Source of the DNA: Nonlabens ulvanivorans
GTDB taxonomy: Bacteria; Bacteroidota; Bacteroidia; Flavobacteriales; Flavobacteriaceae
NCBI RefSeq assembly: GCF_000732625.1
Contig: NZ_JPJI01000026.1
Coordinates: 62,001 to 126,000, forward strand
Length of the DNA: 64,000 nt
Direction: 5' to 3'
Shown here: in pieces, positions 4,469-62,834 of the stretch
Numbering within the stretch: position 1 is the stretch's first letter
How the letters are laid out: every line of letters begins with the position of its first letter
Notes under the pieces: model-generated
Told to the model about the DNA's origin: nothing
What the model saw: only the letters and a program-made list of their open reading frames with translations
Databases searched by the model: none
Translations under genes and position numbers: made by a program

Positions 4469-4482
4469 GCTTTCGCGAAAGC
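4469..4482. repeat. Palindromic repeat copy 1 (intergenic, after phoH)
   Basis: GCTTTCGCGAAAGC, 12 bases beyond the phoH stop codon. The outer flank is only half conserved (C on the left, A on the right). Confidence 0.85.
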
Positions 4483-4494
4483 AAAAAAATACAA

Positions 4495-5448
4495 TTAATT
4501 TCTATTCTCAATATCCTTATAAGCGGCAATAACCTTTTTTACAAGTCTATGACGCACCACATCGTTGTCGTCTAGGTACATCATACCTACTCCATCAACA
4601 TCTTTAAGGATCAATAAAGCCTCCTTAAGTCCAGAAATAACACGTCGCGGTAAATCAATTTGTCCAGGATCGCCAGTAATGAAAAATTTTGCATCTTTCC
4701 CCATACGTGTTAGGAACATTTTCATCTGTGCATGTGTCGTGTTTTGAGCTTCATCAAGAATCACAAAAGCACCATCTAGCGTTCTACCTCTCATAAAAGC
4801 GAGCGGTGCAATTTGAATAATTCCTTTCTCTATATAAGTAGAAAGCTTCTCTGCTGGGATCATATCTCGCAAGGCATCATAAATAGGCTGCATGTATGGA
4901 TCTAGTTTTTCTTTAAGGTCACCTGGTAGGAAACCTAAATTCTCACCAGCTTCTACAGCCGGTCTAGTCATAATAATGCGTTTAACCTGTTTCTCTTTAA
5001 GTGCTCTTACAGCCATTGCTACACCCATGTATGTCTTACCTGTTCCAGCAGGTCCGATGGCAAAGACCATATCATTCTTCTTAGTAAGTTCTACTAGTTT
5101 GCGTTGATTAGGAGTTTTGGCCTTAATTATCTTTCCACTTACGCCATGTACTAGAGTATCACCACTACCTTTTGCGTTATCATAGTCCTCTCTACTATTG
5201 CTAGTTAGTACTCGTTCCATAATATTTTCATCCATCGTATTATACTTTCCGTAATGCTCTAGCATCATCTGAATACGTTTATCAAATTCTTGTAATTGTT
5301 CTTCATCACCAAAAACTTTCATCGTGCTGCCACGTGCGACTATTTTAAGTTTAGGAAAGTGCTTTTTTAAGAAAGCTAGATTTTTATTTCTAACCCCAAA
5401 AAACTCTCTAGGATTAGATTCTGAAAGGTCAATGATAAGTTCGTTCAA
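4495..5448 (-). CDS. PhoH family ATPase
   Basis: This 317-residue protein is a PhoH-type P-loop ATPase, a family linked to RNA metabolism and named for phosphate-starvation induction in Escherichia coli. The first 110 residues form the small KH-like N-terminal region. The Walker A motif GPAGTGKT lies at residues 132-139 and the Walker B segment FVILDEAQ at 228-235, followed by the family's ITGDPGQIDLP segment near 268. The length is normal and all ATPase residues are present. The gene is monocistronic as far as the spacing shows, with purC about 145 bases downstream. Catalytic class is firm, cellular role is not. Confidence 0.93.
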   Translation of the reverse strand: MNELIIDLSESNPREFFGVRNKNLAFLKKHFPKLKIVARGSTMKVFGDEEQLQEFDKRIQMMLEHYGKYNTMDENIMERVLTSNSREDYDNAKGSGDTLVHGVSGKIIKAKTPNQRKLVELTKKNDMVFAIGPAGTGKTYMGVAMAVRALKEKQVKRIIMTRPAVEAGENLGFLPGDLKEKLDPYMQPIYDALRDMIPAEKLSTYIEKGIIQIAPLAFMRGRTLDGAFVILDEAQNTTHAQMKMFLTRMGKDAKFFITGDPGQIDLPRRVISGLKEALLILKDVDGVGMMYLDDNDVVRHRLVKKVIAAYKDIENRN

Positions 5449-5608
5449 AAGCGTATAATTATATGAATGATTGCGTTTATTATTTTATAATTTTGCTAGA
5501 GCATGTAACACTTGCAAAACTTGTAACAATTTAAAGAATTGAATCAGGAAAATAGCAATTGTAACAAAAATTTAATCCTTATTTAATTAACAACTTTCCA
5601 GCACCTTT

Positions 5609-7454: not shown

Positions 7455-7456
7455 GA

Positions 7457-13761: not shown

Positions 13762-13775
13762 GCTTTCGCGAAAGC
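13762..13775. repeat. Palindromic repeat copy 2 (intergenic)
   Basis: Full 18-base form ACGCTTTCGCGAAAGCGT at 13760-13777, 15 bases after the terminator hairpin and 21 bases before the next start codon. Confidence 0.92.
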
Positions 13776-17875: not shown

Positions 17876-18686
17876 AAAATCTATGCGCGTGCGCTTGTAT
17901 ATAGTATTTAAATTGATCTTTTACTGCGTGGACCACATCGGGATATATCACACCTGTTTCTTCATCACAATATACTTTAGCAATTTCAGTAGCTAGAACC
18001 AGTGTATTCAATGAGTTAGACGTAACGTATTTTAAAAAATATCCATTTCCTTGAAAAACATCATTGATACCACAACTAACCTCTTGCTCAATGGGTAATT
18101 CTATTTTATCTAATATATCCTTCCATTGCTGTATGTCATGCACAAACCGGTCCTGATCTATATTTTTAGTTCCTAAGTTGAACACAGGTACCTTACGATC
18201 CCATCTTTTCCAGTTATAGGAGTGTACGTCATAAAAAACGGTAGACCCAAACATTTCTTCTAGTTTTACTATCAAAGACAGTACCACTCTATAAAAATTA
18301 TTATGTCTTAATATAGCTTGATCTTTCTGCTTTCGCGAAAGCGGTTTTCTCCATAACTCTTTGCCCCAAGCACTGTCATAAACAGCCTCTAACGGGTCTC
18401 TATTTAAGTCATATTCAAATCTAGAATCGTGAGCTATGAGCGTAATGGGCAACCCAGAAATCATGTCACCAGTACAAGGATCTTCTTCATACCAGCGGTC
18501 GTATTCTGTATGCAAACAATCCTTCCATAGTTCTTTTTTAAAGTGATGTCCATCATGCACTGCAGCGCAAACGAAAGGCACATACTTATCTATTTTGATA
18601 GAAAAAGAATAATCACTAGCAACAGCATGAAATCGTTCTTCGCGCTCGATTTTCATGAGCATTTCAGTGATACTTAATTTAAGCAT
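17850..18686 (-). CDS. N-formylglutamate amidohydrolase-like enzyme
   Basis: This 278-residue protein matches the N-formylglutamate amidohydrolase fold, a zinc hydrolase related to carboxypeptidases. The metal and substrate motifs are HDGHH at 44-48, DLNR at 93-96 and YDVHSYN at 152-158. Histidine-degradation genes are absent nearby, so a role in histidine breakdown is unlikely; the tight overlap with an ATP-grasp ligase (8 bases) and a DUF1704 peptidase (26 bases) points to hydrolysis of an amide or N-blocked amino-acid product in that pathway. The genome palindrome is embedded at codons encoding LSRK (116-119). The start is set by the overlap with the ligase stop; ATGs at codons 9 and 11 are alternatives. 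Confidence 0.85.
   Translation of the reverse strand: MLKLSITEMLMKIEREERFHAVASDYSFSIKIDKYVPFVCAAVHDGHHFKKELWKDCLHTEYDRWYEEDPCTGDMISGLPITLIAHDSRFEYDLNRDPLEAVYDSAWGKELWRKPLSRKQKDQAILRHNNFYRVVLSLIVKLEEMFGSTVFYDVHSYNWKRWDRKVPVFNLGTKNIDQDRFVHDIQQWKDILDKIELPIEQEVSCGINDVFQGNGYFLKYVTSNSLNTLVLATEIAKVYCDEETGVIYPDVVHAVKDQFKYYIQAHAHRFYERHERIV
18329..18342. repeat. Palindromic repeat copy 3 (inside the amidohydrolase gene)
   Basis: GCTTTCGCGAAAGC, read in the coding strand as LSRK within PLSRKQK. Confidence 0.9.
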
Positions 18687-24102: not shown

Positions 24103-25167
24103 TTATAATCTTGTAGTTCTTGCTCTTATAAAATGATCTGCCATAACCAGTGCGGCCATCGCTTCAACGATAGGTACAGCTCGTGGCACCACACAAGGAT
24201 CGTGTCTACCTTTACCTTGCATCATCACTTTTTCACCAGCACTATTAATTGTTTCTTGATTTTGAATTAAAGTGGCTACTGGTTTAAAGGCAACTCTAAA
24301 ATAGATATCCATACCATTAGAAATACCACCTTGAATTCCACCACTTAAATTAGTTTGAGTCGTACCATCTTCATTATATAAATCATTATGATCACTTCCT
24401 TTCATTTTAGCGCCACAAAATCCACTTCCATATTCAAATCCTTTCACGGCATTGATGGATAACATTGCTTTGGCAAGATCTGCATGGAGTTTATCAAACA
24501 CAGGTTCTCCTAGACCACTTGGCACGTTTTGAATCACACAAGTAATTGTTCCACCTATAGTATCTCCTGCCTTTCTTACTTGCATTATTTTTTCTTCAAA
24601 CGCTTTCGCGAAAGCGGAATCAGGACATCTCACTGCATTATTTTCAATCTCATTAAAATCAAGGTCTTGGTATGGTTTATCAATAAATAAATCACCAACA
24701 CTACTGGTAAAAGCATTAATTTTAAAGGAGCTCAATAGTTGTTTTGCAATGGCACCAGCCACTACTCTACTTGCCGTTTCTCGAGCACTACTGCGTCCAC
24801 CACCACGATAATCGCGCACACCGTATTTATCATCATACACTTTATCTGCATGACTAGGTCTATACGTATCCTTAATATGTGAGTAATCTTTAGATTTTTG
24901 ATTCTCATTGACTATTTGAAAACCTATAGGTGTACCGGTGGTTACACCTTCAAAGATACCAGACATAAACTGTACGGTATCAGATTCTTTGCGCTGAGTT
25001 ACGATTTTGCTTTGACCTGGTTTACGTCTATCCAGATCTCGTTGAATAGCTTCCATATCTAGTGTTAAACCAGCTGGACAGCCGTCTATAATTCCTCCTA
25101 TTGCGATACCGTGTGACTCACCATAAGTAGTAAGTTTAAATAAAGTACCAAATGTATTTCCTGCCAT
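24103..25167 (-). CDS. aroC: Chorismate synthase
   Basis: Chorismate synthase converts EPSP to chorismate, the last step of the shikimate pathway, using reduced FMN. Visible signatures are TYGESHG near the N-terminus, [20 protein letters not shown] near 121-140, and [20 protein letters not shown] near the C-terminus. The length (354 aa) is standard. The palindromic repeat is embedded in frame as AFAKA within [10 protein letters not shown], a region that is variable in the family. The -7-like box begins only six bases upstream of the ATG, so the transcript could be nearly leaderless. The other shikimate genes are not nearby. Confidence 0.96.
24602..24615. repeat. Palindromic repeat copy 4 (inside aroC)
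   Basis: GCTTTCGCGAAAGC; extended match at 24600-24616. It encodes AFAKA in the chorismate synthase frame. Confidence 0.92.
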
Positions 25168-29891: not shown

Positions 29892-29912
29892 AGAGGTAAT
29901 TAAATAGGCCGG

Positions 29913-29920
29913 CAAAGATA
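29913..29920 (-). promoter_or_regulatory. Putative -7 box of mtaB
   Basis: TATCTTTG on the minus strand, an exact TAnnTTTG match, 21 bases before the ATG. Confidence 0.5.
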
Positions 29921-30064
29921 AGAAGTATTCGTTAGGTATCTGTTAATACTCTTAGCCTTATTGAGTTGTTGCGATAAATTATTCTTTAAATGCTAACTAT
30001 CATTTAATCTTAGGTTAATACAGAATCGTTAAGGAAATAATTTCTTTGAACAAACAGAGTAGCC

Positions 30065-30886: not shown

Positions 30887-30918
30887 TTAAAAAATAAGAG
30901 TTAAAGTATATTTACAGC

Positions 30919-32511
30919 ATGATTAAAAATTGCTGTTTTCTATTACTGTCGCTCCTATTCATCAATTGTGGTGATACTAGTATTACTATTGATGAAACAA
31001 CAGTTTTTAGATATAATGAACATGCAAACATCACTACACTAGATCCTGCATTTGCAAAAGATCAGCGCAATATATGGGCTTGCAATTTAATTTATAATGG
31101 TTTAGTAAAACTGGATAAAAACCTCGAGGTAGTTCCCGACCTTGCTAGTGAATGGTACATTAGTGAAGATGGACTGGTGTATACTTTTCAACTTAGAGAG
31201 GATATTTATTTTCAAGACTTTGACGCTTTCGCGAAAGCGAGACAAGTAACCGTACAGGATTTTAAATATTCCCTAGAACGATTAACAGATCCAGCGGTAG
31301 CATCTCCTGGTGCTTGGGTTATGTCTAATGTTTCTGCAATAAATACGATTGATGAGCATCAATTAAGAATTACTTTAAAAAAGCCATTCCCAGCCTTTTT
31401 AGGATTACTAACCATGAAGTTTTGCAGCGTGGTACTACCAGAAGCTGTAGAAAAATACGGTAATGAATACCGTTCAAATCCTGTGGGAACTGGACCTTTC
31501 TATTTAAAACGATGGGAAGAAAACGTAAAAATGGTACTGCGCAAGAATAACAACTATCACGAAAAAGACAGCACTGGCAAAGCATTACCTTACCTAGAAG
31601 CGGTCGCCATCACTTTTAAAAGCGATAAACAAAGTGAATTCCTAGAATATGCTCAAGGGAATCTGGATTTTATAAACGCTATAGATCCTAGTTATAAAGA
31701 TGAATTGCTGACCACAACTGGAGACTTAAAAGCTAAATACGTTTCCACAACAAATTTGGTAAAAGCTCCATTTCTAAACACAGAATATCTAGGCTTATAC
31801 CTAGACAGCAGCACACCAGAACTGCAAAGCAAACTACTTAGACAGGCGATTAATAAAGGATTTGACAGAGAGAAGATGATCAAGTACTTGCGCAACAATA
31901 TAGGTATTCCTGCAACCAGCGGACTCATTCCTGCCGGATTACCAGCTGGTGGCGTGGTAAAAGGATATGAATATGATATCCATAAAGCACAACGATTAGT
32001 ACAACAATACATTACGGAAACTGGTGACACTAATCCCGAAATTACGATTACCACTGGTGCTAATTATCTAGATCTTTGTGAATTCATTCAGAAAGAACTT
32101 GAAAAAATAGGTGTGAAAACGATTGTAGAAGTCATGCCACCATCTACATTACGTCAAGCCCGTAGCGCTGGAAACCTAGATATCTTCCGCTCGAGCTGGA
32201 TTGCCGATTATCCCGATGCCGAGAATTATTTATCGCTAGGATATTCTAAAAACTTTTCTCCTAACGGACCTAACTATACGCACTTTAAAAACGATACCTA
32301 CGACCAGCTCTACGAGCAAGCACTCACCTTACCTAACGCTGCCGACCGTAAGGAACTCTATATAAAAATGGATTCTATCATCATTAATGAAGCGCCTATC
32401 GTTCCTCTTTATTATGATGAAAGTGTACGTTTTATCAGCAAGAAAGTCAGTGGTTTAGAAACTAACGCCGTGAATATGTTGAATTTGACGAGAGTTAACA
32501 AAACAAATTAA
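30919..32511 (+). CDS. Peptide/oligopeptide ABC transporter substrate-binding lipoprotein
   Basis: This 530-residue protein matches the SBP_bac_5 family (DppA, OppA). It starts with a lipoprotein signal (LLFINCGDT, Cys at about 17). The family segments LDPAFAKDQRNIWACNLIYNGLV (after 35), DGLVYTFQLREDIYF and NPVGTGPFYLKRW are present. The palindromic repeat is embedded in frame as AFAKA within DFDAFAKARQ. No permease or ATPase genes are adjacent, so it either pairs with an unlinked transporter or serves another role. A TATATTTA box just before the ATG suggests a very short leader. Confidence 0.88.
   Translation: MIKNCCFLLLSLLFINCGDTSITIDETTVFRYNEHANITTLDPAFAKDQRNIWACNLIYNGLVKLDKNLEVVPDLASEWYISEDGLVYTFQLREDIYFQDFDAFAKARQVTVQDFKYSLERLTDPAVASPGAWVMSNVSAINTIDEHQLRITLKKPFPAFLGLLTMKFCSVVLPEAVEKYGNEYRSNPVGTGPFYLKRWEENVKMVLRKNNNYHEKDSTGKALPYLEAVAITFKSDKQSEFLEYAQGNLDFINAIDPSYKDELLTTTGDLKAKYVSTTNLVKAPFLNTEYLGLYLDSSTPELQSKLLRQAINKGFDREKMIKYLRNNIGIPATSGLIPAGLPAGGVVKGYEYDIHKAQRLVQQYITETGDTNPEITITTGANYLDLCEFIQKELEKIGVKTIVEVMPPSTLRQARSAGNLDIFRSSWIADYPDAENYLSLGYSKNFSPNGPNYTHFKNDTYDQLYEQALTLPNAADRKELYIKMDSIIINEAPIVPLYYDESVRFISKKVSGLETNAVNMLNLTRVNKTN
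31225..31238. repeat. Palindromic repeat copy 6 (inside the binding-protein gene)
   Basis: GCTTTCGCGAAAGC; extended match at 31223-31239. It encodes AFAKA. Confidence 0.92.
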
Positions 32512-32513
32512 AC

Positions 32514-34895
32514 CTACTCACCACAACCTATCGGACTACCATCCGGTAAACTAGGTAAATTCACCACTTTAAACTTAGTTGGATCTTTAAAATACTGCTC
32601 GATTTGAGAACGTAATTCTAGAGCCGTGGCATTTTTAAGTCTTTTAAGTTTCTTGTCGATGGTTAACAATTGATTTCTGATTAAACCTTTAGCCGCTACA
32701 TTTGTTCGTGAGTTAGCATGAGCGTTTATTAATTGCATGACCAGTCGTTCTTGAACACGCTGCTGAATGGTTTTTTGATAATTTGAATCAGTTTTACTTT
32801 CAAAAACTACTTCGGTTATGTTTTGTAATAACTCTTCTAGTCCTAGATTATCTTGCTCTATAGCTTTAATTTGAACCACTCGATTCACACGCTGTGGATG
32901 TAGTAAGAAACTCAAAGTCATATCGGCACTACTCGCTGCAGCATGCAATGGGTCAAATGCCACGCCTACTTCACTTTTAAAACTTTCTCTACCACGGTAG
33001 TAACCATAAGCACGAGGCGGAAATAATTCTAGTAAATCAGTCGGTATCATTAATTGTTCTACCTCAAGAGTTTTTAAAAGAGCTTTTAAAGCACTCATTT
33101 GTTCTTGTTTTGAAAGATATCTCATTTCTACAGTATCACCTTTTGTAGCATAGTTGTATTCCATTCCACCTATCCATTTTGTAGTAGCTTCTACTTGATA
33201 ACGATGGCCATAATAAACGGGCACAAAAACATCTTCCAGAACACTTAACGGCTCATCTGTTCTGATGTTATCAATACTAAATTGATTCATCGCTACTTGA
33301 CGTATTTCTAGCATACGTTCTAGTTCTGCTCCAGGTTGACTTCCATTATCCCATAGATGTGCCTGAGCATGTGCGCCACCAGCAGCTCTAGAATCGCTGT
33401 CTGAGATAAATCTTAAATTTTGAGCAGTAGCGTTATCAATAACACCTTTTAAATATTGCTCTTCAGATTGAGTCTTATCTGGGTTTCCATAAGAATATTG
33501 AACCGTTAAATCATCCCAAGCGCCCATTCCTGAATCATAAGCATCATCAAGACTTATTTCTCCATCAACTAATTCTAATCTAGGATGTGGATAATCCATC
33601 ACACTAGCTCTATCACTAGTACTAGCTGCAAAATTATGGGCAAATCCTAGTGTGTGACCTACCTCATGAGCTCCTAATTGCCTGATACGTGCTAGTGCTA
33701 GTTCCATCATCTTATCGTGGTTCTCATCATTTTCTTTAAAAGGTTCTTTAAGTAAACCTTGAGCGATCATAAAATCTTGTCTTATTCGCAAACTTCCTAG
33801 ACTTACATGGCCTTTGATAATTTCGCCAGTTCGTGGATCTGTGATACTCGCTCCATAACTCCATCCACGTGTGCTGCGGTGTACCCATTGAATGACATTA
33901 TATCTCAAATCCATAGGATCTGCGCCATCGGGTAACATTTTTACTTGGAATGCATTTTTATATCCTGCACTTTCAAAAGCGGTATTCCACCAGCCAGCTC
34001 CATCTAATAAGGCACTACGCACTGGTTCTGGTGTACCAGGATCTAGATAATAAATAATAGGCTCTACCACTTCACTAATAGCCGCATCAGGATTTTTCTT
34101 CTCTAATCGATGTCTGGTTATAAAACGCTTTTGAATAGGTTCATAAACCGGTGAGCTATAATCCATATAACTCACATAAAAAGATCCACTACGCGGATGA
34201 AAAACTCGAGGCTCATACCCAGCATCTGGTAATTTTACAAAACTGTGATGTTGTATAACCGTAATGGCTTTGGCATCTGGTGCGACGCTTCTTAGGTTGC
34301 GACCAGTCGGTGTTCCTGTAAAAGTGAGCATAGCTTCAAACTCACTATTTTCAGGGAAAGATTTTGTGTTTTCCATCCACAAAGCGCTGCGAGATTTATC
34401 TACTTTATAAGAACCTTCTTTGTTTCGTTTAAGTGTTGCGGCTACACCAAAAGTATCCTGCATTAAAAACGACGTTATATCAATCGTGTAAACACCATCT
34501 TTCTGTGATTTTATTTCAAAACCGTATAAAACCGACTGTGCAAATGCTTGATTGATAGAAGCACGCTCATTATCATTATCACTACTCGCTCTGTATTTAA
34601 GGTTGGGCTGCATGAGTAGTAATTTATGACCACTTTTCACCCATTTTACGACAACGCCATCACCCAACTTACCTCTATCGAGACCTATGTCATTAGATCC
34701 TAGACCAGTACTTAGTGAATAAACATATAGAAATTCCTTATCTAAATCCTTGACTTCTAGAAGTATGTTACCTTTATCTTCTGAGTAAGTAAAGTTATAG
34801 TAGCCTTTAAATTCTTGTTTGGATGATTGTGATTGCGCTTTCGCGAAAGCGGAATAAAACAAAACTAAAGTACTTATAAATAGAATTCTTTTCAT
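32514..34895 (-). CDS. Secreted zinc metalloprotease (DUF5117/DUF4953 type)
   Basis: This 793-residue exported protein has a signal peptide (1-20) and matches the large Bacteroidetes zinc-dependent metalloproteases. A DUF5117-like beta domain comes first, followed by the catalytic DUF4953 region with the extended zinc site HEVGHTLGFAHN near 408-419 and a Met-turn-like VMDYPHPR about 20 residues later. The signal-peptidase motif AKA is encoded by the palindromic repeat. The role is protein or peptide breakdown outside the cytoplasm; no T9SS domain is present. It converges with the binding-protein gene with a two-base gap. Confidence 0.87.
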   Translation of the reverse strand: MKRILFISTLVLFYSAFAKAQSQSSKQEFKGYYNFTYSEDKGNILLEVKDLDKEFLYVYSLSTGLGSNDIGLDRGKLGDGVVVKWVKSGHKLLLMQPNLKYRASSDNDNERASINQAFAQSVLYGFEIKSQKDGVYTIDITSFLMQDTFGVAATLKRNKEGSYKVDKSRSALWMENTKSFPENSEFEAMLTFTGTPTGRNLRSVAPDAKAITVIQHHSFVKLPDAGYEPRVFHPRSGSFYVSYMDYSSPVYEPIQKRFITRHRLEKKNPDAAISEVVEPIIYYLDPGTPEPVRSALLDGAGWWNTAFESAGYKNAFQVKMLPDGADPMDLRYNVIQWVHRSTRGWSYGASITDPRTGEIIKGHVSLGSLRIRQDFMIAQGLLKEPFKENDENHDKMMELALARIRQLGAHEVGHTLGFAHNFAASTSDRASVMDYPHPRLELVDGEISLDDAYDSGMGAWDDLTVQYSYGNPDKTQSEEQYLKGVIDNATAQNLRFISDSDSRAAGGAHAQAHLWDNGSQPGAELERMLEIRQVAMNQFSIDNIRTDEPLSVLEDVFVPVYYGHRYQVEATTKWIGGMEYNYATKGDTVEMRYLSKQEQMSALKALLKTLEVEQLMIPTDLLELFPPRAYGYYRGRESFKSEVGVAFDPLHAAASSADMTLSFLLHPQRVNRVVQIKAIEQDNLGLEELLQNITEVVFESKTDSNYQKTIQQRVQERLVMQLINAHANSRTNVAAKGLIRNQLLTIDKKLKRLKNATALELRSQIEQYFKDPTKFKVVNLPSLPDGSPIGCGE
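34837..34850. repeat. Palindromic repeat copy 7 (in the metalloprotease signal peptide)
   Basis: GCTTTCGCGAAAGC; extended match at 34835-34851. It encodes AFAKA, which forms the signal-peptidase I Ala-x-Ala site. Confidence 0.92.
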
Positions 34896-34993
34896 GTTCT
34901 TGAATTAAAGCCGTAAGTTAAGAAAAGAGATTTGAGTATTTTGCTAGTTAAAAGCAACTATTTTTGAATAGTAGCATCTTAATAAAAAAGACC

Positions 34994-36564: not shown

Positions 36565-36586
36565 GGGACGAAAAGTTTTGCGAGTG

Positions 36587-36594
36587 CAAAGGTA
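36587..36594 (-). promoter_or_regulatory. Putative -7 box of the GlmU-like gene
   Basis: TACCTTTG on the minus strand, 22 bases before the ATG. Confidence 0.45.
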
Positions 36595-36699
36595 GAGATT
36601 TTGGTTTGTTTAGTTACTGGGTTTTTAGGTTGTAGGGTTACTAAGTATTTTAAGTTTTGATTTAAATTTAGTTTTAAGTTTAAAAAGTATCTTAGCACC

Positions 36700-37761: not shown

Positions 37762-37803
37762 AGTATACTGCTCAAATAAATAGTAAAGTTCAAGCAGTAT
37801 ACT
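37762..37803. terminator. Possible bidirectional hairpin between convergent genes
   Basis: An 11-base perfect inverted repeat (AGTATACTGCT and complement) with a 20-base loop and no T run. It sits directly after the DUF3810 stop codon and before the end of the convergent T9SS gene. Confidence 0.4.
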
Positions 37804-37818
37804 AAGAATTAAAGATGG

Positions 37819-38997
37819 CTAGTTCTTTATAATTTTAAAATCACTTTTTAATCCATTAATATCTTCGATCATTAAATTATATAAACCACTAGGTAAATGA
37901 TGAATCGATATTCTTTCATTTGTAGATTCCATAACTTTTCTTCCCATCATGTCATATAATTCAACCGTATGTATTAATTCTGGTCCTTCAATAAACACGA
38001 ACTCACTAGTTGGATTGGGATAAACTTTAAATGGTAGAGTTTCTAATGCTATATCACTGTTTGATAAAGTGCTATTATAATTAAAGGTAGTACGATAATT
38101 AGGTGAAAAGATCATAGCTGCAGAGTCATATTGAGACTCTGTTGAAGTTAATACTTTACTGACAAAAGGACTTTCATCATATATAAAATCGATACCCGTT
38201 TTATCTTTAAAAGGATGGTCTAATGTGCTAAGCTGTATACTAATATCAAAGTTCAAATCAATCTTATAATCCTGAGATGGGTTACCTATAACAGATGAAA
38301 GTGTAGAGATTCTATTTCCAAAGGTGTCTGAGGTATAGGTTTCTCTATCTGTTTCATTCCAAGTAGTACCATCCCATTCCTCATAAATTCTATTAGTGCG
38401 TTGATTGCTTCCGTTATAATTTATCAAATCGCGTTCACTTAATACCCATTGAGAACCTACCCAATCTTCTATTAGAAATTGTGTGATATTAGAACCATTA
38501 TAAGACAAAGTAAATCGCTCTTCAAGATCGTACTGTGAACCGTTCCAAATCTCTATAATAGCAGTAGTTAAAACGCCATTAGTATAAGTTACAGTAAATC
38601 GATCACGAGATACCCAGGCAGATCCTACATATTCTTCAAACACCTGACTAATCAACTGATTTGATGAATTATAAGAATACGTAATCCTATAGCTATCTTC
38701 ATACTGACTGGTTGTACTATTGTAGTTCTGATCTAGAACCACGGTAGCTAGACCGTTAGCATTATAAGAATAAATAGTCTGGTAGCCTTGTTGCCATAAA
38801 GATGTAGATGTGTCCCAAAACAAAAATTCTTCAGAGGTTAAATTACCATTGCTGTCGTAGACATAATTATTTCCAGAGCTATTTATCCACTGGCTGGTCG
38901 CTGTATCATAATACTCATCTATAGATGAAAGTAATTGGTTTTGAGCAACAAGTAAGGTGCTGAACAAAAACATAATAATTAAAGTAAAGTTTTTCAT
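37819..38997 (-). CDS. T9SS-exported repeat protein
   Basis: The chosen start gives a 392-residue protein with a signal peptide (MKNFTLIIMFLFSTLLVAQ). Residues about 20-260 are repeats of roughly 30-40 residues, each containing YN-type turns and a W-hydrophobic strand (for example EEYVGSAWVSRDRF and EDWVGSQWVLSERD), similar in style to YD/RHS repeats. The final 75 residues are a type A T9SS sorting domain: VYPNPTSEFVFI, a central YDMMGRKVM and the terminal SDFKIIKN. It is therefore secreted and probably attached to the surface. The frame extends 21 codons upstream without a signal-peptide start, so that extension is rejected. Confidence 0.85.
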   Translation of the reverse strand: MKNFTLIIMFLFSTLLVAQNQLLSSIDEYYDTATSQWINSSGNNYVYDSNGNLTSEEFLFWDTSTSLWQQGYQTIYSYNANGLATVVLDQNYNSTTSQYEDSYRITYSYNSSNQLISQVFEEYVGSAWVSRDRFTVTYTNGVLTTAIIEIWNGSQYDLEERFTLSYNGSNITQFLIEDWVGSQWVLSERDLINYNGSNQRTNRIYEEWDGTTWNETDRETYTSDTFGNRISTLSSVIGNPSQDYKIDLNFDISIQLSTLDHPFKDKTGIDFIYDESPFVSKVLTSTESQYDSAAMIFSPNYRTTFNYNSTLSNSDIALETLPFKVYPNPTSEFVFIEGPELIHTVELYDMMGRKVMESTNERISIHHLPSGLYNLMIEDINGLKSDFKIIKN

Positions 38998-39134
38998 AAT
39001 GAACTGATTTAAAGTGTCTTTCAAAACTACATGGAATTGATTATGCAGGTAATACCCCATATAGGGTATTTTTTATCCTCGTATTTACCAAAAGTGGATG
39101 TGAATTTTCTGTAGTTCTTAACACTTTTTAAGAA

Positions 39135-39162
39135 TTGTAGATTAATGGAATACCTATCTTTA
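39135..39162 (+). promoter_or_regulatory. Putative promoter of the amidohydrolase operon
   Basis: TTG (39135-39137 region) followed after about 17-18 bases by TATCTTTA (39155-39162), one mismatch to the -7 consensus. The ATG lies 25 bases further. Confidence 0.4.
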
Positions 39163-39187
39163 AAAGCTAATTTCAAAAACTTTATTA

Positions 39188-42136
39188 ATGAAACGAGTTC
39201 TACTACTCTTATTCCTTGTACATGGTATGGCCAGTGCACAGGAATACTTCCCTAATAATGACGACATTTCTGCACGTGGTGAGGTGGTAGTTGCAATTAC
39301 AAATGCAACTATAGTGACACAACCAGGTACCGTTATTAATAATGGAACTATCATCCTTAAGGATGGTAAAATATCGAATATAGGAAGCGGTATAACCGTT
39401 CCTACAGGAGCAGTTATTCAGGATGCAAATGGAAGTTACATCTACCCATCTTTTATCGAGCCTTATGCAGATTTTGGAATGGAAAAAGCAAAACGTGCTT
39501 CAGGTAGCGGTCAGCAATATGATGAGAGTCGTCAAGGTTACTACTGGAATGACCACATCCGTGCAGAGCAAGATGCCCTAGACTTCTATAAATATGACGA
39601 GAAAGAAGCTGAAAAAATGATCGATGCTGGTTATGGTGCAGTGCAAACACATATGAATGACGGTATTGCTCGCGGTTCTGGTATGCTAGTAGCTCTTAAT
39701 AATAACGGTGATGACGGAATGAGAATTCTTAAAGAAGAAAGTGGAAGCTTTTTCTCATTAAAACGTAGTGTTCAAACTAGACAATCTTATCCTACTTCAT
39801 TAATGGGTACACTGGCATTATTGCGTCAGACTCATTTTGATGCAGACTGGTACTCAAAAGGAAATAGTGCTACACGCGATCTATCTCTTGAAGCTCTAGT
39901 CGCTAATAAAAACTTAGTTCAAATTATTGAAGCTGGTGATAAGAAGAATGTATTGAGAGTAGATAAAATGGGTGATCGTGTCGGCAAACAATTTGTGATT
40001 GTAGGTGGTGAAGATGCTTATGAAATGATTGATGATATTAAAGCAACCAATGCGTCATTAATTTTACCTATCAACTTTCCAGATGCATATGATGTGACTA
40101 ACCCGTATCAAGAGTGGTATGTAAATTTAGCAGATATGCGTGAATGGAAACAAGCACCAGCAAATCCATTTTTACTTTCTAAAGCTGGAATCAATTATGC
40201 CATCACTAGTCAAGGATTAAAAACTCCAGATAAATTGATGGAGAAATTAAAGATGGCAATGGAATACGGACTTACTGCAGACCAAGCTCTTGCAGCATTG
40301 ACGACAAAACCTGCACAGATTTTGGGCGTAAGCGATATGGTGGGAACTCTTCAAAAAGGAAAAGTCGCTAACTTCATTATGACTTCTGGGCCATTATTTG
40401 AGAAGGATACTAAAATTTATGAAAATTGGGTTCAAGGCTCTAAGCATGTCATTAAAGATCGTCACCTTAAGGATATTGACGGATCTTACACGGCTCTTAT
40501 CGCAGGAGACACTTATAAAATGGATATCTCTGGAGATGCTAAAAAAGTAAGTATCAAAATAGACAGTACTAAATTAGGTGGGAAAATCGCTTATGATGGT
40601 AACTGGATTACTATTACAGCTTCTCAAAAAAATGCAGATGACAAGACCTTCACTAGAATGATCAGTAAAGTATCTAAAGAAGATCGTTTGACAGGTACTG
40701 CATACCTAGCAAATGGTAATGAAGTTTCTTTTACCGCAACTAAGGATGTTGAGAAAGAAAAGGATGAAAAAGAAAAGGATGAAAAGAAAAAGGAAACTAA
40801 AACTTTAGGTCCACTCACCTTTCCAAATGTAAGCTATGGAAGCGCTACAAAACCTCAAGAAGAGACTATACTGTATCGCAACGCTACTGTATGGACTAAT
40901 GAGAAAGATGGAATTTTAGAAAACACAGATGTTCTGGTTAAAAATGGAAAAATATCTAAGATAGGTAAAAACCTTAGTGCTAGTAACGCTAGAGTAATCG
41001 ATGCTACAGGAAAACACTTAACTAGCGGTATTATAGATGAACATAGTCATATCGCTATAGATAATGGTGTCAATGAAGCAGGACACAATTCTACTGCCGA
41101 GGTTACTATTGAAGACGTAGTAGATCACGAAGATGTAAATATTTACAGAGATCTTGCTGGTGGAGTAACTACTTCACAACTTTTACATGGTTCTGCAAAT
41201 CCTATAGGTGGACGTAGTGCGATTATTAAATTGAAATGGGGCTATTCTCCAGAAGAAATGATTTATTCTGACAGTCCTAAGTTTATCAAATTTGCATTAG
41301 GAGAAAACGTAAAACAATCGCGTTACCAGAATGGTGTGCGTTTCCCACAGACTCGTATGGGTGTAGAACAAGTATTTGAAGACTACTTTACTCGTGCAAG
41401 AGAATATGCAGATTCTAAAGGAAAAAAGAACTTCCGCTATGATGAAGAAATGGAAGTTATTCTAGAAATTCTTGAAAGTGAGCGATTCGTTTCTTGTCAC
41501 TCTTATGTGCAGACAGAAATCAACATGTTAATGAAAGTGGCTGAAAAGCACGGTTTCCGTATCAATACATTTACACATATTCTAGAAGGTTATAAAATGG
41601 CCGATAAGATGAAAGAACATGGTGTAGGTGGATCTACATTCTCTGATTGGTGGGCTTATAAATATGAAGTCAACGACGCTATACCTTATAACGCAGCCAT
41701 CATGCATTCTCAAGGTGTGGTCACAGCAATCAATTCAGATGATGCTGAGATGTCTAGACGTTTAAATCAAGAAGCGGCAAAAGCAGTAAAATATGGAAAC
41801 GTCAGTGAAGAAGATGCTTGGAAATTTGTAACCTTAAACCCTGCAAAACTTTTACATATCGATGATCGTACAGGAAGTATTAAAACAGGAAAAGATGCAG
41901 ATCTGGTTCTTTGGTCAGATAATCCTTTATCTGTTGCGGCAACCGCAGAGGTTACTATGATTGATGGGATTGTGTTTTTTGATAAGGAACGTGATCTACG
42001 CTTTCGCGAAAGCATAAAAGAAGAACGCCAGCAGCTTATCAATGAAATGATCGCTGCAAAGAATAAAGGACTCAAAACACAAGAGCCAAAACAATCTACT
42101 AAAACTCTTTATGAGTGTAACACGCTAGAATGGTAA
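39188..42136 (+). CDS. Two-domain exported amidohydrolase
   Basis: This 982-residue protein has a signal peptide (1-17) and two amidohydrolase-superfamily barrels joined by a highly charged Lys/Glu/Asp linker near 515-540. In the second barrel the metal ligands look complete: DEHSHIAID near 618-626 (HxH), HSYVQTE near 775, HILEGYKMADK near 797, and NSDDAEMSRR near 844 for the catalytic Asp. In the first barrel the HxH position is replaced (FIEPYADFG near 84), so that half is probably inactive. A member of the imidazolonepropionase-type exported enzymes, perhaps a periplasmic dipeptidase-like hydrolase. Two bases separate it from the next amidohydrolase gene. The palindromic repeat encodes RFRES near the C-terminus. 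Confidence 0.85.
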   Translation: MKRVLLLLFLVHGMASAQEYFPNNDDISARGEVVVAITNATIVTQPGTVINNGTIILKDGKISNIGSGITVPTGAVIQDANGSYIYPSFIEPYADFGMEKAKRASGSGQQYDESRQGYYWNDHIRAEQDALDFYKYDEKEAEKMIDAGYGAVQTHMNDGIARGSGMLVALNNNGDDGMRILKEESGSFFSLKRSVQTRQSYPTSLMGTLALLRQTHFDADWYSKGNSATRDLSLEALVANKNLVQIIEAGDKKNVLRVDKMGDRVGKQFVIVGGEDAYEMIDDIKATNASLILPINFPDAYDVTNPYQEWYVNLADMREWKQAPANPFLLSKAGINYAITSQGLKTPDKLMEKLKMAMEYGLTADQALAALTTKPAQILGVSDMVGTLQKGKVANFIMTSGPLFEKDTKIYENWVQGSKHVIKDRHLKDIDGSYTALIAGDTYKMDISGDAKKVSIKIDSTKLGGKIAYDGNWITITASQKNADDKTFTRMISKVSKEDRLTGTAYLANGNEVSFTATKDVEKEKDEKEKDEKKKETKTLGPLTFPNVSYGSATKPQEETILYRNATVWTNEKDGILENTDVLVKNGKISKIGKNLSASNARVIDATGKHLTSGIIDEHSHIAIDNGVNEAGHNSTAEVTIEDVVDHEDVNIYRDLAGGVTTSQLLHGSANPIGGRSAIIKLKWGYSPEEMIYSDSPKFIKFALGENVKQSRYQNGVRFPQTRMGVEQVFEDYFTRAREYADSKGKKNFRYDEEMEVILEILESERFVSCHSYVQTEINMLMKVAEKHGFRINTFTHILEGYKMADKMKEHGVGGSTFSDWWAYKYEVNDAIPYNAAIMHSQGVVTAINSDDAEMSRRLNQEAAKAVKYGNVSEEDAWKFVTLNPAKLLHIDDRTGSIKTGKDADLVLWSDNPLSVAATAEVTMIDGIVFFDKERDLRFRESIKEERQQLINEMIAAKNKGLKTQEPKQSTKTLYECNTLEW
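42000..42013. repeat. Palindromic repeat copy 9 (inside the amidohydrolase gene)
   Basis: GCTTTCGCGAAAGC; extended left flank AC. It is read in the third frame as RFRES. Confidence 0.9.
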
Positions 42137-42138
42137 TC

Positions 42139-43425
42139 ATGAAAAGAATCATATATATATTATGCGCTGTAGTAGGATTTACCGCAGCAGCACAACAAAC
42201 TCCAGCACCTGCAGCAAACAAGTCATATACCATTATGAATGCTACAGCACACATAGGTAATGGAGAGCTTATAGAAAATAGTGTCATCGTTATAGAAAAC
42301 GGTAAAATTACCACAGTTGCAGATGCTACAACTGTAAAAATGCAACCAAAAGGAGAAGTCATTAACGCCAGCGGATTGCATGTTTATCCAGGTATTATAG
42401 CTTGTAATACAACGCTAGGTCTAGTAGAAATAGATGCGGTAAAAGCGAGTGATGATGATAGAGAAATAGGAACTTATAATCCGCATATACGTAGTTTAAT
42501 TGCTTATAATGCAGAGAGTCGTGTGGTTGAAACCATGAGACCTAATGGTGTTCTTATTGCGCAAGTAGTACCACGTGGTGGTCGTATTTCTGGTCAGAGT
42601 AGTGTGATGCAAATGGATGCATGGAACTGGGAAGATGCCGCAGTACGAGTGGATGATGGTGTACATATCAACTGGCCTAGAACTTTTAGAAGATCTGGTA
42701 GCTGGTATGAGCCAGGACCTACTATCCCTAGTAAAAACTATGATAAAGAAGTAGATGAATTGACTCAATTCTTAGCTGCAGCGCGTGCTTATACAGGAAG
42801 TGGAAAGAAAGATTTAAAGTATGCATCTTTAAAACCAGTGCTTGCAGGAAATGCAACGGCTTATATACATGTGAATGGAGAAAAAGCGATACGCGACGTT
42901 TTAGGATTTGTAAAAGAACAAGGTTTAAAAAAAGTCGTTCTAGTTGGTGCTCAAGGTGCTCAAAACGTGACTAAAGAATTGGTAGCGATGAACATTCCAG
43001 TTCTTGCAGGTAGAGTTCACGATTTACCAGCCAGAGATGATGCCGACTATGACATGCCTTACAAGTTTCCAAAATTGTTAAGTGATGCTGGTGTGTTAGT
43101 CGCATTAGAGAATTCAGGAGATATGGAACGTCACCAAGCTCGTAATTTCCCATTCTATGCTGGACATACGGTAGGTTTTGGAATGGATCCAGAAAAAGCA
43201 TTACAATTAGTGACTTTAAATGCTGCAACTGTTTTAGGGATTGAGAAAGATTATGGATCTCTAGAACAAGGTAAAAGCGCTACCCTATTCATCTCAAAAG
43301 GAGATGCCTTAGATATGCGAGGAAATCAATTGACTCGTGCTTTTATTGATGGACGTGATATTTCTTTGAACACTAGACAGAAGGATTTGAATGATCGTTA
43401 TATGGAGAAGTATAGTAAGCAGTAG
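42139..43425 (+). CDS. Exported amidohydrolase-like protein, probably inactive
   Basis: The chosen start (MKRIIYILCAVVGFTAAAQ) gives a 428-residue exported protein of the amidohydrolase superfamily, two bases after the stop of the larger partner; an ATG three codons earlier would overlap that stop. Its sequence aligns with the first barrel of the upstream protein, with the common GVLIAQVVPRGGRISGQSS core and the C-terminal GFGMDPEKALQLVTLNAATVLG. The HxH metal motif is absent here too (IYPGIIACNTTLGLVEID where the catalytic sequence would stand is replaced in this copy by VYPGIIACNTTL). It may be a structural or regulatory subunit of a hetero-oligomer with its neighbour. Confidence 0.8.
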   Translation: MKRIIYILCAVVGFTAAAQQTPAPAANKSYTIMNATAHIGNGELIENSVIVIENGKITTVADATTVKMQPKGEVINASGLHVYPGIIACNTTLGLVEIDAVKASDDDREIGTYNPHIRSLIAYNAESRVVETMRPNGVLIAQVVPRGGRISGQSSVMQMDAWNWEDAAVRVDDGVHINWPRTFRRSGSWYEPGPTIPSKNYDKEVDELTQFLAAARAYTGSGKKDLKYASLKPVLAGNATAYIHVNGEKAIRDVLGFVKEQGLKKVVLVGAQGAQNVTKELVAMNIPVLAGRVHDLPARDDADYDMPYKFPKLLSDAGVLVALENSGDMERHQARNFPFYAGHTVGFGMDPEKALQLVTLNAATVLGIEKDYGSLEQGKSATLFISKGDALDMRGNQLTRAFIDGRDISLNTRQKDLNDRYMEKYSKQ

Positions 43426-51809: not shown

Positions 51810-52328
51810 TTAACTTAAATACCGCTCCATTATCACGTTTTCGTGATGCTTATTGTGACCAGCAATTAAAAAAGGAATCACACGTACACTCATAGCGCTA
51901 TCGCTTGCAATACCTTTAATCATAAGTTGATCTACCGTAATAGACTTAAATAAATCAATAGTAGCGTTTCTAGTAGCTTGAAAAGAATTTAATAGATCCG
52001 CTTTCGCGAAAGCGTAATTTTTATAATCTCTAGCAAATACATCTTGATCAAATCCTGGTAAAGGTGTTACATCACCTCTCATAAATCTAAGGGCTCGATA
52101 AGCAAACACACGTTCTGTATCGATATTATGCATCAACACCTCACCTATCGACCACTTTCCTTCTCCATATGTAGTGTCTAGAGGCTTGTCTATCGCTTTT
52201 ATAAAATGTAAGGTATCCTCTAAACTAGTTTCAAGAATCGTATCAATGGTTGCTGCCTCTGGTACTAAATTTAAATAATGATCGTAGTAGCTATTGTACT
52301 CTTCTGATTGAATTTCTTTACGAGTCAT
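51810..52328 (-). CDS. DinB family metalloprotein
   Basis: The 172-residue protein matches the DinB/YfiT four-helix family of metal-binding proteins, with likely ligands in MHNIDTERVFAYRA near 68-81 and AGHNKHHENV near 155-164. Related proteins are thiol transferases or damage-induced proteins, but most remain uncharacterised. The palindromic repeat is embedded as AFAKA (YAFAKAD near 105). It lies four bases downstream of the Lrp-type regulator gene on the same strand and is probably co-transcribed. Confidence 0.82.
   Translation of the reverse strand: MTRKEIQSEEYNSYYDHYLNLVPEAATIDTILETSLEDTLHFIKAIDKPLDTTYGEGKWSIGEVLMHNIDTERVFAYRALRFMRGDVTPLPGFDQDVFARDYKNYAFAKADLLNSFQATRNATIDLFKSITVDQLMIKGIASDSAMSVRVIPFLIAGHNKHHENVIMERYLS
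52000..52013. repeat. Palindromic repeat copy 11 (inside the DinB gene)
   Basis: GCTTTCGCGAAAGC with CGT on the right; encodes AFAKA. Confidence 0.92.
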
Positions 52329-56551: not shown

Positions 56552-56565
56552 GCTTTCGCGAAAGC
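56552..56565. repeat. Palindromic repeat copy 12 (intergenic)
   Basis: GCTTTCGCGAAAGC with ACGC on the left and GCGA on the right, five bases from a terminator hairpin and 12 from a gene end. Confidence 0.92.
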
Positions 56566-59437: not shown

Positions 59438-59457
59438 AACGCTATTAATAGGGAATG

Positions 59458-59465: not shown

Positions 59466-59582
59466 TTATCTACTTATCCCTTTATGAGTAACGCCAAATT
59501 AAAAATGTAACAAAAAGACAAAAGGCTAAAATAAAAGACAAAATACACGTTTTCAGTCGGTTCAATATGCTTTTAACCGATG

Positions 59583-60023: not shown

Positions 60024-60051
60024 CGTTTATAAATTGTGGTATAAAAATAAA

Positions 60052-60077
60052 AATCCTGCTTTCGCGAAAGCAGGATT
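60052..60077. repeat. Palindromic repeat copy 13 in extended form (mscL-parC gap)
   Basis: The core GCTTTCGCGAAAGC at 60058-60071 is extended by matching six-base arms (AATCCT and AGGATT), giving a 26-base perfect palindrome, 17 bases before the parC stop codon side and 28 bases from the mscL start. Confidence 0.9.
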
Positions 60078-60094
60078 AGATAAATAATTAACTT

Positions 60095-62776
60095 TTAAAA
60101 AAGACTCGCTTGTCCACTATCATCGATATCTGGATCTGGCGCATTATCATCTTTAACTTCTTTATTAGGTTTTGCTGCTGCATTAGCATTTGAAGGTTCA
60201 GTAGTAGACACTACCGTTTCGTCATTAACTTCGACCTCAACCGCTGGAGTGGTTTCTGGCTCTTCAAACGGTAATGGATCTAACCAGTTAATTTGTTTCA
60301 CTTTACTTTTAGTAAGCTGGTTCCCTTGTGCACCTATTCCTTTAACCGCTATAAACTCATCTATATCAACAGGTTCATTAGGTGGTTGTTCTTTACCTCT
60401 GGGTTTGTTAAACACTAGCTCAGCAACAGGCTTATAGTCTGTAGAAATAACTTCAAGATAAGAACCTTCAACATCTGGCAGGAATGTTTCTTCTCTTTCC
60501 TCATTTTCAACTAAGAATCTCTTAACGTAAAATAATTCTTTTTCCCCATGAAAATATATAGCACTTATCGGTTTTTTAGGAGACCACTTCTCTAAAGCTA
60601 TCATATCGTCATCAAAACGAGCTGTTACCTCAGGAATTATAGTTTTAACTAATCCTTTTTGATTGATAATTAACAATCGATCTTCTCCTCTGAATTCACC
60701 TAAAAGCTCACCTCTTCCATCAACATTTAAACGTTGTACCGTATCATCAAACCAAATTTTACGTGGTTTCAAGGTACTTACACCTTCTTCTTTAAGTTCT
60801 ACTTTCTTAATGTTATACTTAGTCACTTGATTACCTCTGGATGCTCTACCTTTAATTAGAATCTCAGAGAAATCTAAATCCCATTTTACTTTCTTAATAC
60901 TTCCTTGCTGGCGCAGATTTATACTTACAACCTCAGCCTCTCCATTAGGATTTGCACTAAAATAATGTACCTGAGATCCTTTATCTGCTTTACCCATAGG
61001 ATATGCCTTATCTCTGGTCATACTCGTTACGGCAAACCTCTTTACATAACTAGGTCCTGTTTTACCATCTCGATAAATCACATTATATATGGTACGCTTA
61101 TCTTTTTTCTTAAAGACAGCAACATGAATAATGTCTTTACCAATAAAGGTTTTAGCATCTACTTTAGTCACCATCATCGTTCCATCTTTAGTAAATACTA
61201 TGATATCATCTATGTCTGCACAATCGGTAACATACTCGTCTCTTTTTAATGAAGTACCTATAAAGCCTTCGGCTCTATTTACGTAGAGCTTAGTGTTTCT
61301 CATCACTACCTTTGTAGCTACGATATCGTCAAAGGTCTTGATCTCTGTTTTACGCTCTCTTCCTTCTCCATAATTCTTTTTGAGAGATTTAAAGTAATCA
61401 ATCGCATATTCAATAAGATGCTCTAGGTGATGCTTCAACTGTGCAATACGTTCTTCAAGAGCATCTATTTTTTGCTGTGCTTTATCAATATCAAATTTTG
61501 AAATACGTTTAATACGAATCTCTGTTAATCTCGTGATATCATCTACAGTAATAGCTCTTTTTAAATGACCTATGTGCGGTTTTAATCCTTTATCAATCGC
61601 AGTGATAACTCCATCCCATGTTTCCTCTTCCTCAATATCGCGATAAATTCTATTCTCAATAAAAATGCGCTCTAATGATGCAAAGTGCCACTGCTCTTCT
61701 ACTTCATCAAGTTGTATTTCTAACTCTTGTTTTAATAAATCAACAGTATGATCTGCACTGCGACGCAACATCTCTGTAACACCTACAAATAATGGTTTAT
61801 TATCTTCTATCACACAACCTAGTGGAGAGATACTGGACTCACAATTTGTAAAAGCAAATAAGGCGTCCATCGTTTTATCTGGAGAAATTCCAGCATGAAG
61901 ATGAATCATGATCTCCACATCGGCAGCGGTGTTGTCTTCTATCTTTTTGATTTTAATCTTGCCTTTATCATTGGCTTTTAAAATCGAGTCGATTAAAGAG
62001 CTTGTATTTGTTGAATACGGTATTTCAGTGATGATTATCGTATTCTTATCTGGTGCGTGCATTTTTGCGCGCACACGCACTTTACCACCACGCAAACCGT
62101 CATTATAATTAGAAATATCGATTTCTCCACCAGTCGGAAAATCCGGATATATAGTAAATCTTTTACCTTGTAAATGCTTTATAGAAGCATCTATTAACTC
62201 AATAAAATTGTGTGGTAACACTTTAGTACTTAGTCCTACTGCGATTCCTTCAGCACCTTGTGCGAGTAGTAACGGGAATTTTACCGGTAGGTTAACAGGT
62301 TCTTTACGACGGCCATCATAACTGGATTGCCATTCTGTAATTTTAGGATTAAAAAGAATTTCTAGCGCAAACTTTGACAATCTTGCTTCTATATAACGAG
62401 AAGCCGCTGCAGGATCGCCTGTAAAGATATTTCCCCAGTTTCCTTGCATGTCTATGAGCATGTCTTTTTGCCCTATTTGTACCATGGCGTCACTGATACT
62501 AGCATCTCCATGTGGATGATACTGCATGGCATGACCTACAATGTTTGCTACCTTATTATAACGTCCATCATCTAGATCTTTCATAGACTGCATAATACGT
62601 CTTTGAACAGGTTTAAAACCATCTTCAATCGCTGGTACCGCACGTTCCAATATTACATAACTCGCATAATCTAAGAACCATTCCTTGTACATTCCCGTAA
62701 TACGAGTAATGCTCTCCGTAGGTTCTATGATCTCGCCTTCATGGATTGGCTCTAATTCTTCGTTTTCTTCACTCAT
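60095..62776 (-). CDS. parC: DNA topoisomerase IV subunit A
   Basis: Subunit A of type IIA topoisomerase IV cuts and rejoins DNA to unlink daughter chromosomes. The 893-residue sequence has the breakage-reunion domain with Tyr128 (AASRYIEARLS) as the catalytic residue, the GDPAAASRY region, and a C-terminal beta-pinwheel without a GyrA box, which supports ParC rather than GyrA. The resistance-determining region reads HPHGDASISD, with Ala92 at the position of the common quinolone-contact serine. The protein ends with an acidic tail and the pentapeptide QASLF. It follows parE by 61 bases, as is usual in Flavobacteria. Confidence 0.94.
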   Translation of the reverse strand: MSEENEELEPIHEGEIIEPTESITRITGMYKEWFLDYASYVILERAVPAIEDGFKPVQRRIMQSMKDLDDGRYNKVANIVGHAMQYHPHGDASISDAMVQIGQKDMLIDMQGNWGNIFTGDPAAASRYIEARLSKFALEILFNPKITEWQSSYDGRRKEPVNLPVKFPLLLAQGAEGIAVGLSTKVLPHNFIELIDASIKHLQGKRFTIYPDFPTGGEIDISNYNDGLRGGKVRVRAKMHAPDKNTIIITEIPYSTNTSSLIDSILKANDKGKIKIKKIEDNTAADVEIMIHLHAGISPDKTMDALFAFTNCESSISPLGCVIEDNKPLFVGVTEMLRRSADHTVDLLKQELEIQLDEVEEQWHFASLERIFIENRIYRDIEEEETWDGVITAIDKGLKPHIGHLKRAITVDDITRLTEIRIKRISKFDIDKAQQKIDALEERIAQLKHHLEHLIEYAIDYFKSLKKNYGEGRERKTEIKTFDDIVATKVVMRNTKLYVNRAEGFIGTSLKRDEYVTDCADIDDIIVFTKDGTMMVTKVDAKTFIGKDIIHVAVFKKKDKRTIYNVIYRDGKTGPSYVKRFAVTSMTRDKAYPMGKADKGSQVHYFSANPNGEAEVVSINLRQQGSIKKVKWDLDFSEILIKGRASRGNQVTKYNIKKVELKEEGVSTLKPRKIWFDDTVQRLNVDGRGELLGEFRGEDRLLIINQKGLVKTIIPEVTARFDDDMIALEKWSPKKPISAIYFHGEKELFYVKRFLVENEEREETFLPDVEGSYLEVISTDYKPVAELVFNKPRGKEQPPNEPVDIDEFIAVKGIGAQGNQLTKSKVKQINWLDPLPFEEPETTPAVEVEVNDETVVSTTEPSNANAAAKPNKEVKDDNAPDPDIDDSGQASLF

Positions 62777-62820
62777 TTGTTAGTTAACGGTTATCGGTTA
62801 ACAGTTGTTAGATTAATCAC

Positions 62821-62834
62821 GCTTTCGCGAAAGC
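62821..62834. repeat. Palindromic repeat copy 14 (parC-parE gap)
   Basis: Full 18-base form ACGCTTTCGCGAAAGCGT at 62819-62836, directly after the parE stop codon. The remaining gap holds a degenerate AGTTAACGG / GGTTAACAG dyad. Confidence 0.92.

Follow-up and report, generated by a model that had tools for sequence, protein, structure and literature searches.

DNA uptake sequences (DUS) and uptake signal sequences (USS) are established in two proteobacterial families. The USS core is 9 bp long, non-palindromic and read by the type IV pilus machinery. We know of no earlier palindromic DNA uptake sequence in Bacteroidota. Riemerella, which belongs to the same family as Nonlabens, is transformed by means of ComEC, DprA, ComF, RecA and proteins of unknown function (PMC8459023), and Riemerella columbina prefers its own DNA, the signals having been sought there only among k-mers of up to 10 (PMC7965970). 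In this work, we analysed a 64-kb stretch of the Nonlabens ulvanivorans contig NZ_JPJI01000026.1 (the window) and the 14-mer palindrome GCTTTCGCGAAAGC that is repeated in it. Judging from its distribution, conservation and flanks, the palindrome probably serves, on balance, as a DNA uptake sequence in Nonlabens and in no fewer than two further flavobacterial genera.

The window contains 11 exact copies of GCTTTCGCGAAAGC between positions 4469 and 62834, and none of 100 dinucleotide-preserving shuffles of the window contained it. The first-pass annotation, made from the window alone, had described a highly repeated palindrome with at least 14 copies at about every 4.6 kb. The over-representation held, but the copy number was too high and the mean spacing of neighbouring copies is 5.8 kb. 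The genome-wide count against expectation, which had been proposed as a check, gave 566 copies in the 3.2-Mb genome (one per 5.7 kb) and none of the reversed control. In a 464-kb sample (the window plus 400 kb), 80 copies were found versus 0.0004 predicted by base composition. These counts confirm that the palindrome is strongly over-represented. As for the long form first annotated, all 11 window copies share its 14-mer core, while the 16-mer CGCTTTCGCGAAAGCG is present in seven of them and the full 18-mer in only two. The window copies and the terminator-like hairpin built on one of them are as follows.

4469..4482, no strand: copy 1, in a gap, 12 bp past the stop codon of a PhoH-like gene (minus strand)
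13762..13775, no strand: copy 2, in a gap between two plus-strand genes; full 18-mer
18329..18342, no strand: copy 3, inside a gene with an N-formylglutamate amidohydrolase domain; read LSRK
24602..24615, no strand: copy 4, in aroC (chorismate synthase), codons 185-189; read AFAKA
31225..31238, no strand: copy 5, inside a solute-binding-protein gene; read AFAKA
34837..34850, no strand: copy 6, in a met-zincin-like gene, at codon 16, near the start; read AFAKA
42000..42013, no strand: copy 7, near the end of an amidohydrolase-like gene; read RFRES
52000..52013, no strand: copy 8, inside a DinB-like gene; read AFAKA
56552..56565, no strand: copy 9, in a gap, 13 bp past the stop codon of a YadA-head-repeat gene (minus strand)
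60058..60071, no strand: copy 10, in a gap, 23 bp past the stop codon of parC (minus strand)
60052..60077, minus strand: terminator-like hairpin built on copy 10, followed by a T-rich tail, from the consensus scan
62821..62834, no strand: copy 11, in the parE-parC gap, 3 bp past the parE stop codon (minus strand); full 18-mer

Six of these copies lie in gene-like open frames, four of them being read as AFAKA, and five, not seven as first annotated, lie in gaps, where four sit 3-23 bp beyond a stop codon. The claimed preference for gaps was borne out by the 464-kb sample, in which 41 of the 80 copies fell outside long open frames versus 13.2 expected; the split rests on rough gene calls, which gave 36 copies in genes and 44 in gaps in one version and 39 and 41 in the other. 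Such an enrichment would suit a family of repetitive extragenic palindromes (REP) or terminators spread by transposition, and so would a copy inside a terminator-like hairpin. Two copies had been annotated near terminator hairpins; one hairpin, at 60052-60077 on the minus strand, is the palindrome itself, and the consensus scan of the region, with four matches versus 3.8 in shuffles, did not as such reach significance. Genes hold about half of the copies (39/80 in the sample of our genome and 65/103 in the closed genome G019), and for these the REP reading is contradicted. A different sequence, CCTATAGCTA, has six copies in the window (at 6590, 37724, 38686, 57228, 57606 and 58275), all on the plus strand, three of them inside the YadA-head-repeat gene.

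The palindrome was found in all of the 23 Nonlabens genomes searched, our own included, with 288-857 copies each, the lowest count being that of an incomplete genome; the first annotation was right that the palindrome is iterated and flavobacterial. Membership of Nonlabens was assigned from ParC loci and includes strain BBFL7, N. dokdonensis, N. xiamenensis and N. antarcticus. A scan of 397 genomes of the family returned 80 with a match, namely four Nonlabens, G250 (857 copies), G234 (408) and 74 genomes with 1-19 copies, so that outside Nonlabens only G250 and G234 reach Nonlabens-like counts. No copy was present in the 74 non-Nonlabens loci of the ParC set (1.50 Mb), and the highest count outside the family in a phylum sample of 395 genomes was 1. 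In the ParC tree, G250, G234 and the motif-poor G188 form one clade (support 99) separate from Nonlabens, with an unresolved backbone; a shared ancestry of the motif in Nonlabens and G250/G234, with losses, would be compatible with this tree. Among possible ancestral sites common to the two groups, the sole clear orthologue sampled (73% identity) has no motif there. A scan for other iterated palindromes in other genera flagged none in 67 of the 74 non-Nonlabens loci (at least 12 kb), its sensitivity being limited, as four of six Nonlabens loci were flagged. A literature search for GCTTTCGCGAAAGC as a string found no published mention, the sole match to 11-mer substrings of it was unrelated, and the literature on Nonlabens and palindromes, judging by titles, holds nothing on such a repeat.

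Between species, the copies are nearly invariant. All 15 aligned copies of our genome are identical in G003 (15 of 16 in the reverse direction). The first-pass annotation had named absence of the motif at the same loci in close relatives as a refutation, and the sites are instead retained. The comparison with G016 gave 14 of 15 identical copies in each direction, and that of G003 with G016 gave 13 of 14 and 13 of 13. Over the three species pairs, 4 of 616 core sites differ (0.65%) versus about 12% in the surroundings. Copies with one mismatch are few: 15 per 80 exact copies in our sample, 8 per 103 in G019, 3 per 18 in G250 and G234 together and 11 per 37 in the islands described below. The T-to-C variant GCTTCCGCGAAAGC accounts for 7 of the 15 and 6 of the 8 in the first two (13/23 together) and may be a working form. 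In the comparison of our genome with G003 and G016, tracts of high identity (0.93-0.99 per kb) stand amid 0.8-0.9 at window positions 29000-43000 and at 73000-77000 as counted into L152; they perhaps reflect interspecies recombination or simply conserved genes.

The origin of the copies was followed in depth at one locus, aroC. The exact core occupies the same codons in 15 of 22 Nonlabens loci, and two of the other seven are one synonymous base off. Because the alignment has no gap at the site in any of the 30 genomes (22 Nonlabens and 8 others), the aroC copies arose by substitution, not insertion. This rejects an insertion or transposon origin, as the first-pass annotation had already held, and leaves a REP or terminator family spread by transposition as an extremely unlikely explanation. 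Another copy within the ~4-kb aroC locus was found in 3 of the 15 loci with the aroC copy and in all seven without it (Fisher 0.0007, not a clean probability, as the species are related). That a lost copy is accompanied by another nearby would also be understandable if the palindrome were a Chi-like site, which stops or redirects an end-processing exonuclease, is needed once per few kb of chromosome and is carried by phages for protection. The density of one per 5.7 kb resembles that of E. coli Chi as well.

The palindrome is spaced more evenly than random, contrary to the irregular spacing first annotated. For the 103 copies in 20 samples of G019, one of them partly masked, the coefficient of variation (CV) of the gaps was 0.53 vs 0.90±0.07 under random placement; the counts per 20 kb had a variance of 2.8 at a mean of 5.2, and 6 gaps were shorter than 1 kb vs 21 expected. 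In our own genome, none of the 74 gaps falls below the observed minimum of 1384 bp, where 16.0 were expected, and across 5000 random placements the minimum gap never exceeded 653 bp. A 32.5-kb motif-free stretch (L154 1519 to L155 14075) is a defence island with a type I restriction-modification system, a SIR2-STAND protein, a PRTase-CE protein and a serine recombinase.

Even spacing is compatible with a Chi-like site. Together with the very strong conservation, it also suits a chromosome-organising site, that is, hundreds of landing places for a dimeric nucleoid or segregation protein following a Noc-like logic. parS and Noc sites are 14-16-bp palindromes with TTTC...GAAA arms and far fewer copies, and the arms of our palindrome resemble theirs. 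A chromosome-organising role is unlikely in our judgement, as no trend of copies along the G019 chromosome was visible by eye in the 20 samples and the ParB family, the one nucleoid-protein family searched, does not follow the motif. A single ParB_N match was found in 9 of 11 Nonlabens and in G234 and G250, the additional match seen in the remaining two Nonlabens is shared by genomes that lack the motif genome-wide, and the recognition helix of G234 and G250 is like that of motif-free genera. A Noc/ParB paralogue as the binder is therefore unsupported, no extra ParB_N match in the ParB family searched tracking the motif. No parS-like site within three mismatches was found in 30 parB loci of ~3.3 kb each, motif-free genera included, a result of little weight. 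Nonlabens ParB proteins (L383-L386, L388, L390-L395) have GERRCRAS and KSRSAI vs GERRF/YRAS and K(K/N)RST(I/V) in the other genera aligned, and their parS specificity may be shifted.

The flanks of the palindrome extend the symmetry beyond the core. Both are alike, with C at -1 in 84-95% of the copies and T/A-rich sequence. On the 5' side of the core, C rather than G is avoided as far out as about -18, and a second, weak depletion lies around -24. Interspecies divergence in the flanks is lowest at positions 1, 9-11, 16-17 and 23-24, a pattern that looks footprint-like and would also suit a nucleoid protein. The preference is the same in genes (127 copies) and gaps (103), and it is present in G250, in the islands and in multi-copy viral contigs. 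Covariation between the left and right flanks is confined to position 2 in genes and to positions 2 and 4 in gaps, where it may come from hairpin stems; this again speaks against a REP or terminator family. A hairpin or RNA function for all copies was rejected, since the in-gene flanks lack covariation beyond position 2. The flank pattern points to duplex DNA recognised by a symmetric protein.

Two of the alternatives meet difficulties here. The strict 14-bp core with symmetric flank preferences to about 26 bp suggests a dimer on duplex DNA, not the single-strand reading of a Chi-like site, and a palindrome has no strand, in contrast to a non-palindromic, strand-biased motif. To our knowledge, Chi motifs are short and non-palindromic. 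We consider a Chi-like function improbable. The other alternative is a methyltransferase target of the HIP1 kind, created and kept by a methylation-dependent repair bias. HIP1 is likewise an iterated palindrome in genes and gaps (PMC4390886), but it has 8 bp vs the strict 14-bp core here, and a repair bias predicts neither even spacing nor long symmetric flanks, which makes this explanation very unlikely.

An IMG/VR scan with the 16-mer CGCTTTCGCGAAAGCG yielded 41 stretches in 30 contigs. Eleven contigs carry at least two 16-mers, at one per 6.0-14.2 kb, compared with seven in the 64 kb of the window. Several contigs are marked as tailed phages by terminase, portal, head, sheath and tape-measure genes, and two phage contigs have temperate markers, an integrase and a Mu-like transposase. 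The flanks are C-poor in 9 of the 11 multi-copy contigs (absent in 38701_3075 and 40769_41). High-GC single-copy viral matches have no C-poor flanks except mildly in two, and the 69 copies in the remaining viral loci examined showed no flank bias as a group. Between viral pieces of less than 75% identity, 36 of 57 cores match exactly and 15 are one base off; the pairs are redundant, the contigs were chosen for carrying the motif, and gaps near the core reveal that it anchors some of the alignments. The hosts of the metagenome phage contigs were inferred from the motif, so the host-phage argument is partly circular. A 32-mer search of named phages and plasmids gave 2 and 15 records, at chance level only, and is insensitive to the short core.

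The phage copies bear differently on the readings. A chromosome-organising site does not obviously lead one to expect copies in phages and transferred islands, whereas the repair bias of a HIP1-like site would act on phages too. They and their deep conservation are compatible with a Chi-like site, some E. coli phages matching the Chi density of their host, 0.2 per kb (PMC3784561). Taken by themselves, the phage copies would favour Chi, but USS accumulate in temperate Pasteurellaceae phages (PMC6776037), which puts DNA uptake back in the lead.

In the 8 of the 74 low-count genomes from which regions were studied, the palindrome lies in islands that these genomes have in common, and many of its copies there have mismatches. 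Homologous segments are common to 15 of the 16 stretches from these genomes, L349 being the exception. Related islands (L336-L348, L350, L351, L356) are present in eight flavobacterial genomes at about 70-97% DNA identity. The proteins tested (n = 10, two genomes) are mostly products of heavy-metal export and copper genes; the gene types comprise RND efflux, CusB-like, outer-membrane efflux, multicopper oxidase, P-type ATPases, cation efflux and one helix-turn-helix protein. At homologous island sites, 114 of 210 pairs are identical, 63 differ in 1-3 columns and 33 in more, while the Nonlabens regions gave 294 pairs, of which 258 are identical, 15 one base off, 16 gapped and 5 more divergent, with 812 further comparisons unalignable; the pairs of both sets are non-independent, and in gaps the motif itself can anchor the alignment. 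As island pairs are less identical than Nonlabens pairs, the comparison suggests that copies decay in hosts that do not maintain them. The islands may once have been resident in Nonlabens-type hosts.

Among the roles listed by the first-pass annotation (a methylation or binding target, a chromosome-organising site or an uptake signal), the uptake signal fits best; even spacing, symmetric flanks, the genus-wide distribution and the copies in phages and metal islands had been missed. From these patterns, we infer an uptake function, natural competence of Nonlabens, a receptor, and maintenance of the copies by molecular drive or uptake selection. In the proposed mechanism, a DNA receptor of the uptake machinery would favour fragments carrying the palindrome; the symmetry of the site, which reaches about 18-26 bp past the core, makes a homodimer the probable form of this receptor. 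Once taken up, such fragments would recombine with the chromosome, and copies would be spread and repaired in this way. The expected outcome is about one nearly invariant, evenly spaced copy per 4-6 kb in long-resident DNA, including prophages, with few copies in newly arrived islands, and some gap copies may double as terminators. A wider claim, which we advance only tentatively, is that of a new self-DNA recognition system in Bacteroidota that does not depend on type IV pili. A dimer would read its symmetric site of up to ~60 bp; at least two flavobacterial lineages would have the system, with a chromosomal site every few kb, and phages would have acquired the site to near host density.

Several observations weigh against a DNA uptake sequence. 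A type IV pilus-type ATPase (PF00437) passed the cut-off in 3 of 26 genomes, though pilus machinery characterises the known cases and not the sequence itself, and Riemerella is transformed by another set of proteins (PMC8459023). The competence genes ComEC and DprA, whose presence favours uptake, were each found in 26 of 26 genomes, the motif-poor G188 included, and DUF5689, which is needed for Riemerella transformation, in all 28 genomes of its search; since all three also occur in genomes without a genome-wide motif, they do not explain its distribution. DUF5689, the sole candidate looked at, gained no support as the receptor, having no column exclusive to the motif-bearing lineages, and no receptor was thus found. 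In G234 (7 copies) the bias of the flanks is less pronounced, and the divergence beyond the footprint shows no change marking extra recombination near the sites. Over all gaps of our own genome, the CV of 0.75 vs 0.94±0.10 for random placement is not extreme (it is 0.47 without the two gaps of more than 15 kb, one of which is the 32.5-kb defence island), and the second of these gaps (20 kb) is not visibly foreign, the two proteins checked in it being a prolyl oligopeptidase and a UvrA-like protein. The DUS and USS cores known to us are non-palindromic. DUS and USS are also denser, at one per 400-1100 bp (PMC7371117).

The DUF5689 protein is ~99% identical in three Nonlabens species (L413, L414, L417), and the DNA of its locus is about 95% identical vs 85-88% in the aligned window region.

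If the palindrome does serve DNA uptake, uptake sequences would have arisen independently, in palindromic form, in Bacteroidota, the competence machinery of flavobacteria, about which little is known, could be tested for its DNA specificity, and a simple marker tying uncultured phages to Nonlabens-type hosts would be at hand. If it does not, it would be a new, very strongly maintained chromosome-wide site.

Compared with known systems, the palindrome differs from ParB and Noc sites in that no paralogue tracks it. HIP1 of cyanobacteria is methyltransferase-linked and has 8 bp (PMC4390886), whereas the palindrome has 14 bp, even spacing and long flanks. Chi is likewise genome-wide, of similar density and present in some phages at host density (PMC3784561), and the palindrome is set apart from it by its symmetric flanks. 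The likeness to the Pasteurellaceae USS lies in a core with AT-rich flanks and relatively even spacing (PMC7811141), and the accumulation of USS in temperate phages (PMC6776037) has its counterpart in tailed phages with the Nonlabens-type palindrome, two of them with temperate markers. USS occur about once per kb (PMC7811141), in contrast to a 14-bp palindrome at one per 4-6 kb with flanks on both sides and a pilus-type ATPase in 3 of 26 genomes. The Neisseria DUS is similarly conserved, at 97% identity vs about 85% around it, has few one-off copies (0.25-0.43 per copy), as has the palindrome, and is rare in recently acquired genes and present in some terminators (PMC2397512). The DUS is a 10-mer whose terminators are inverted DUS pairs (PMC2397512), whereas here a single palindrome can form the hairpin alone.

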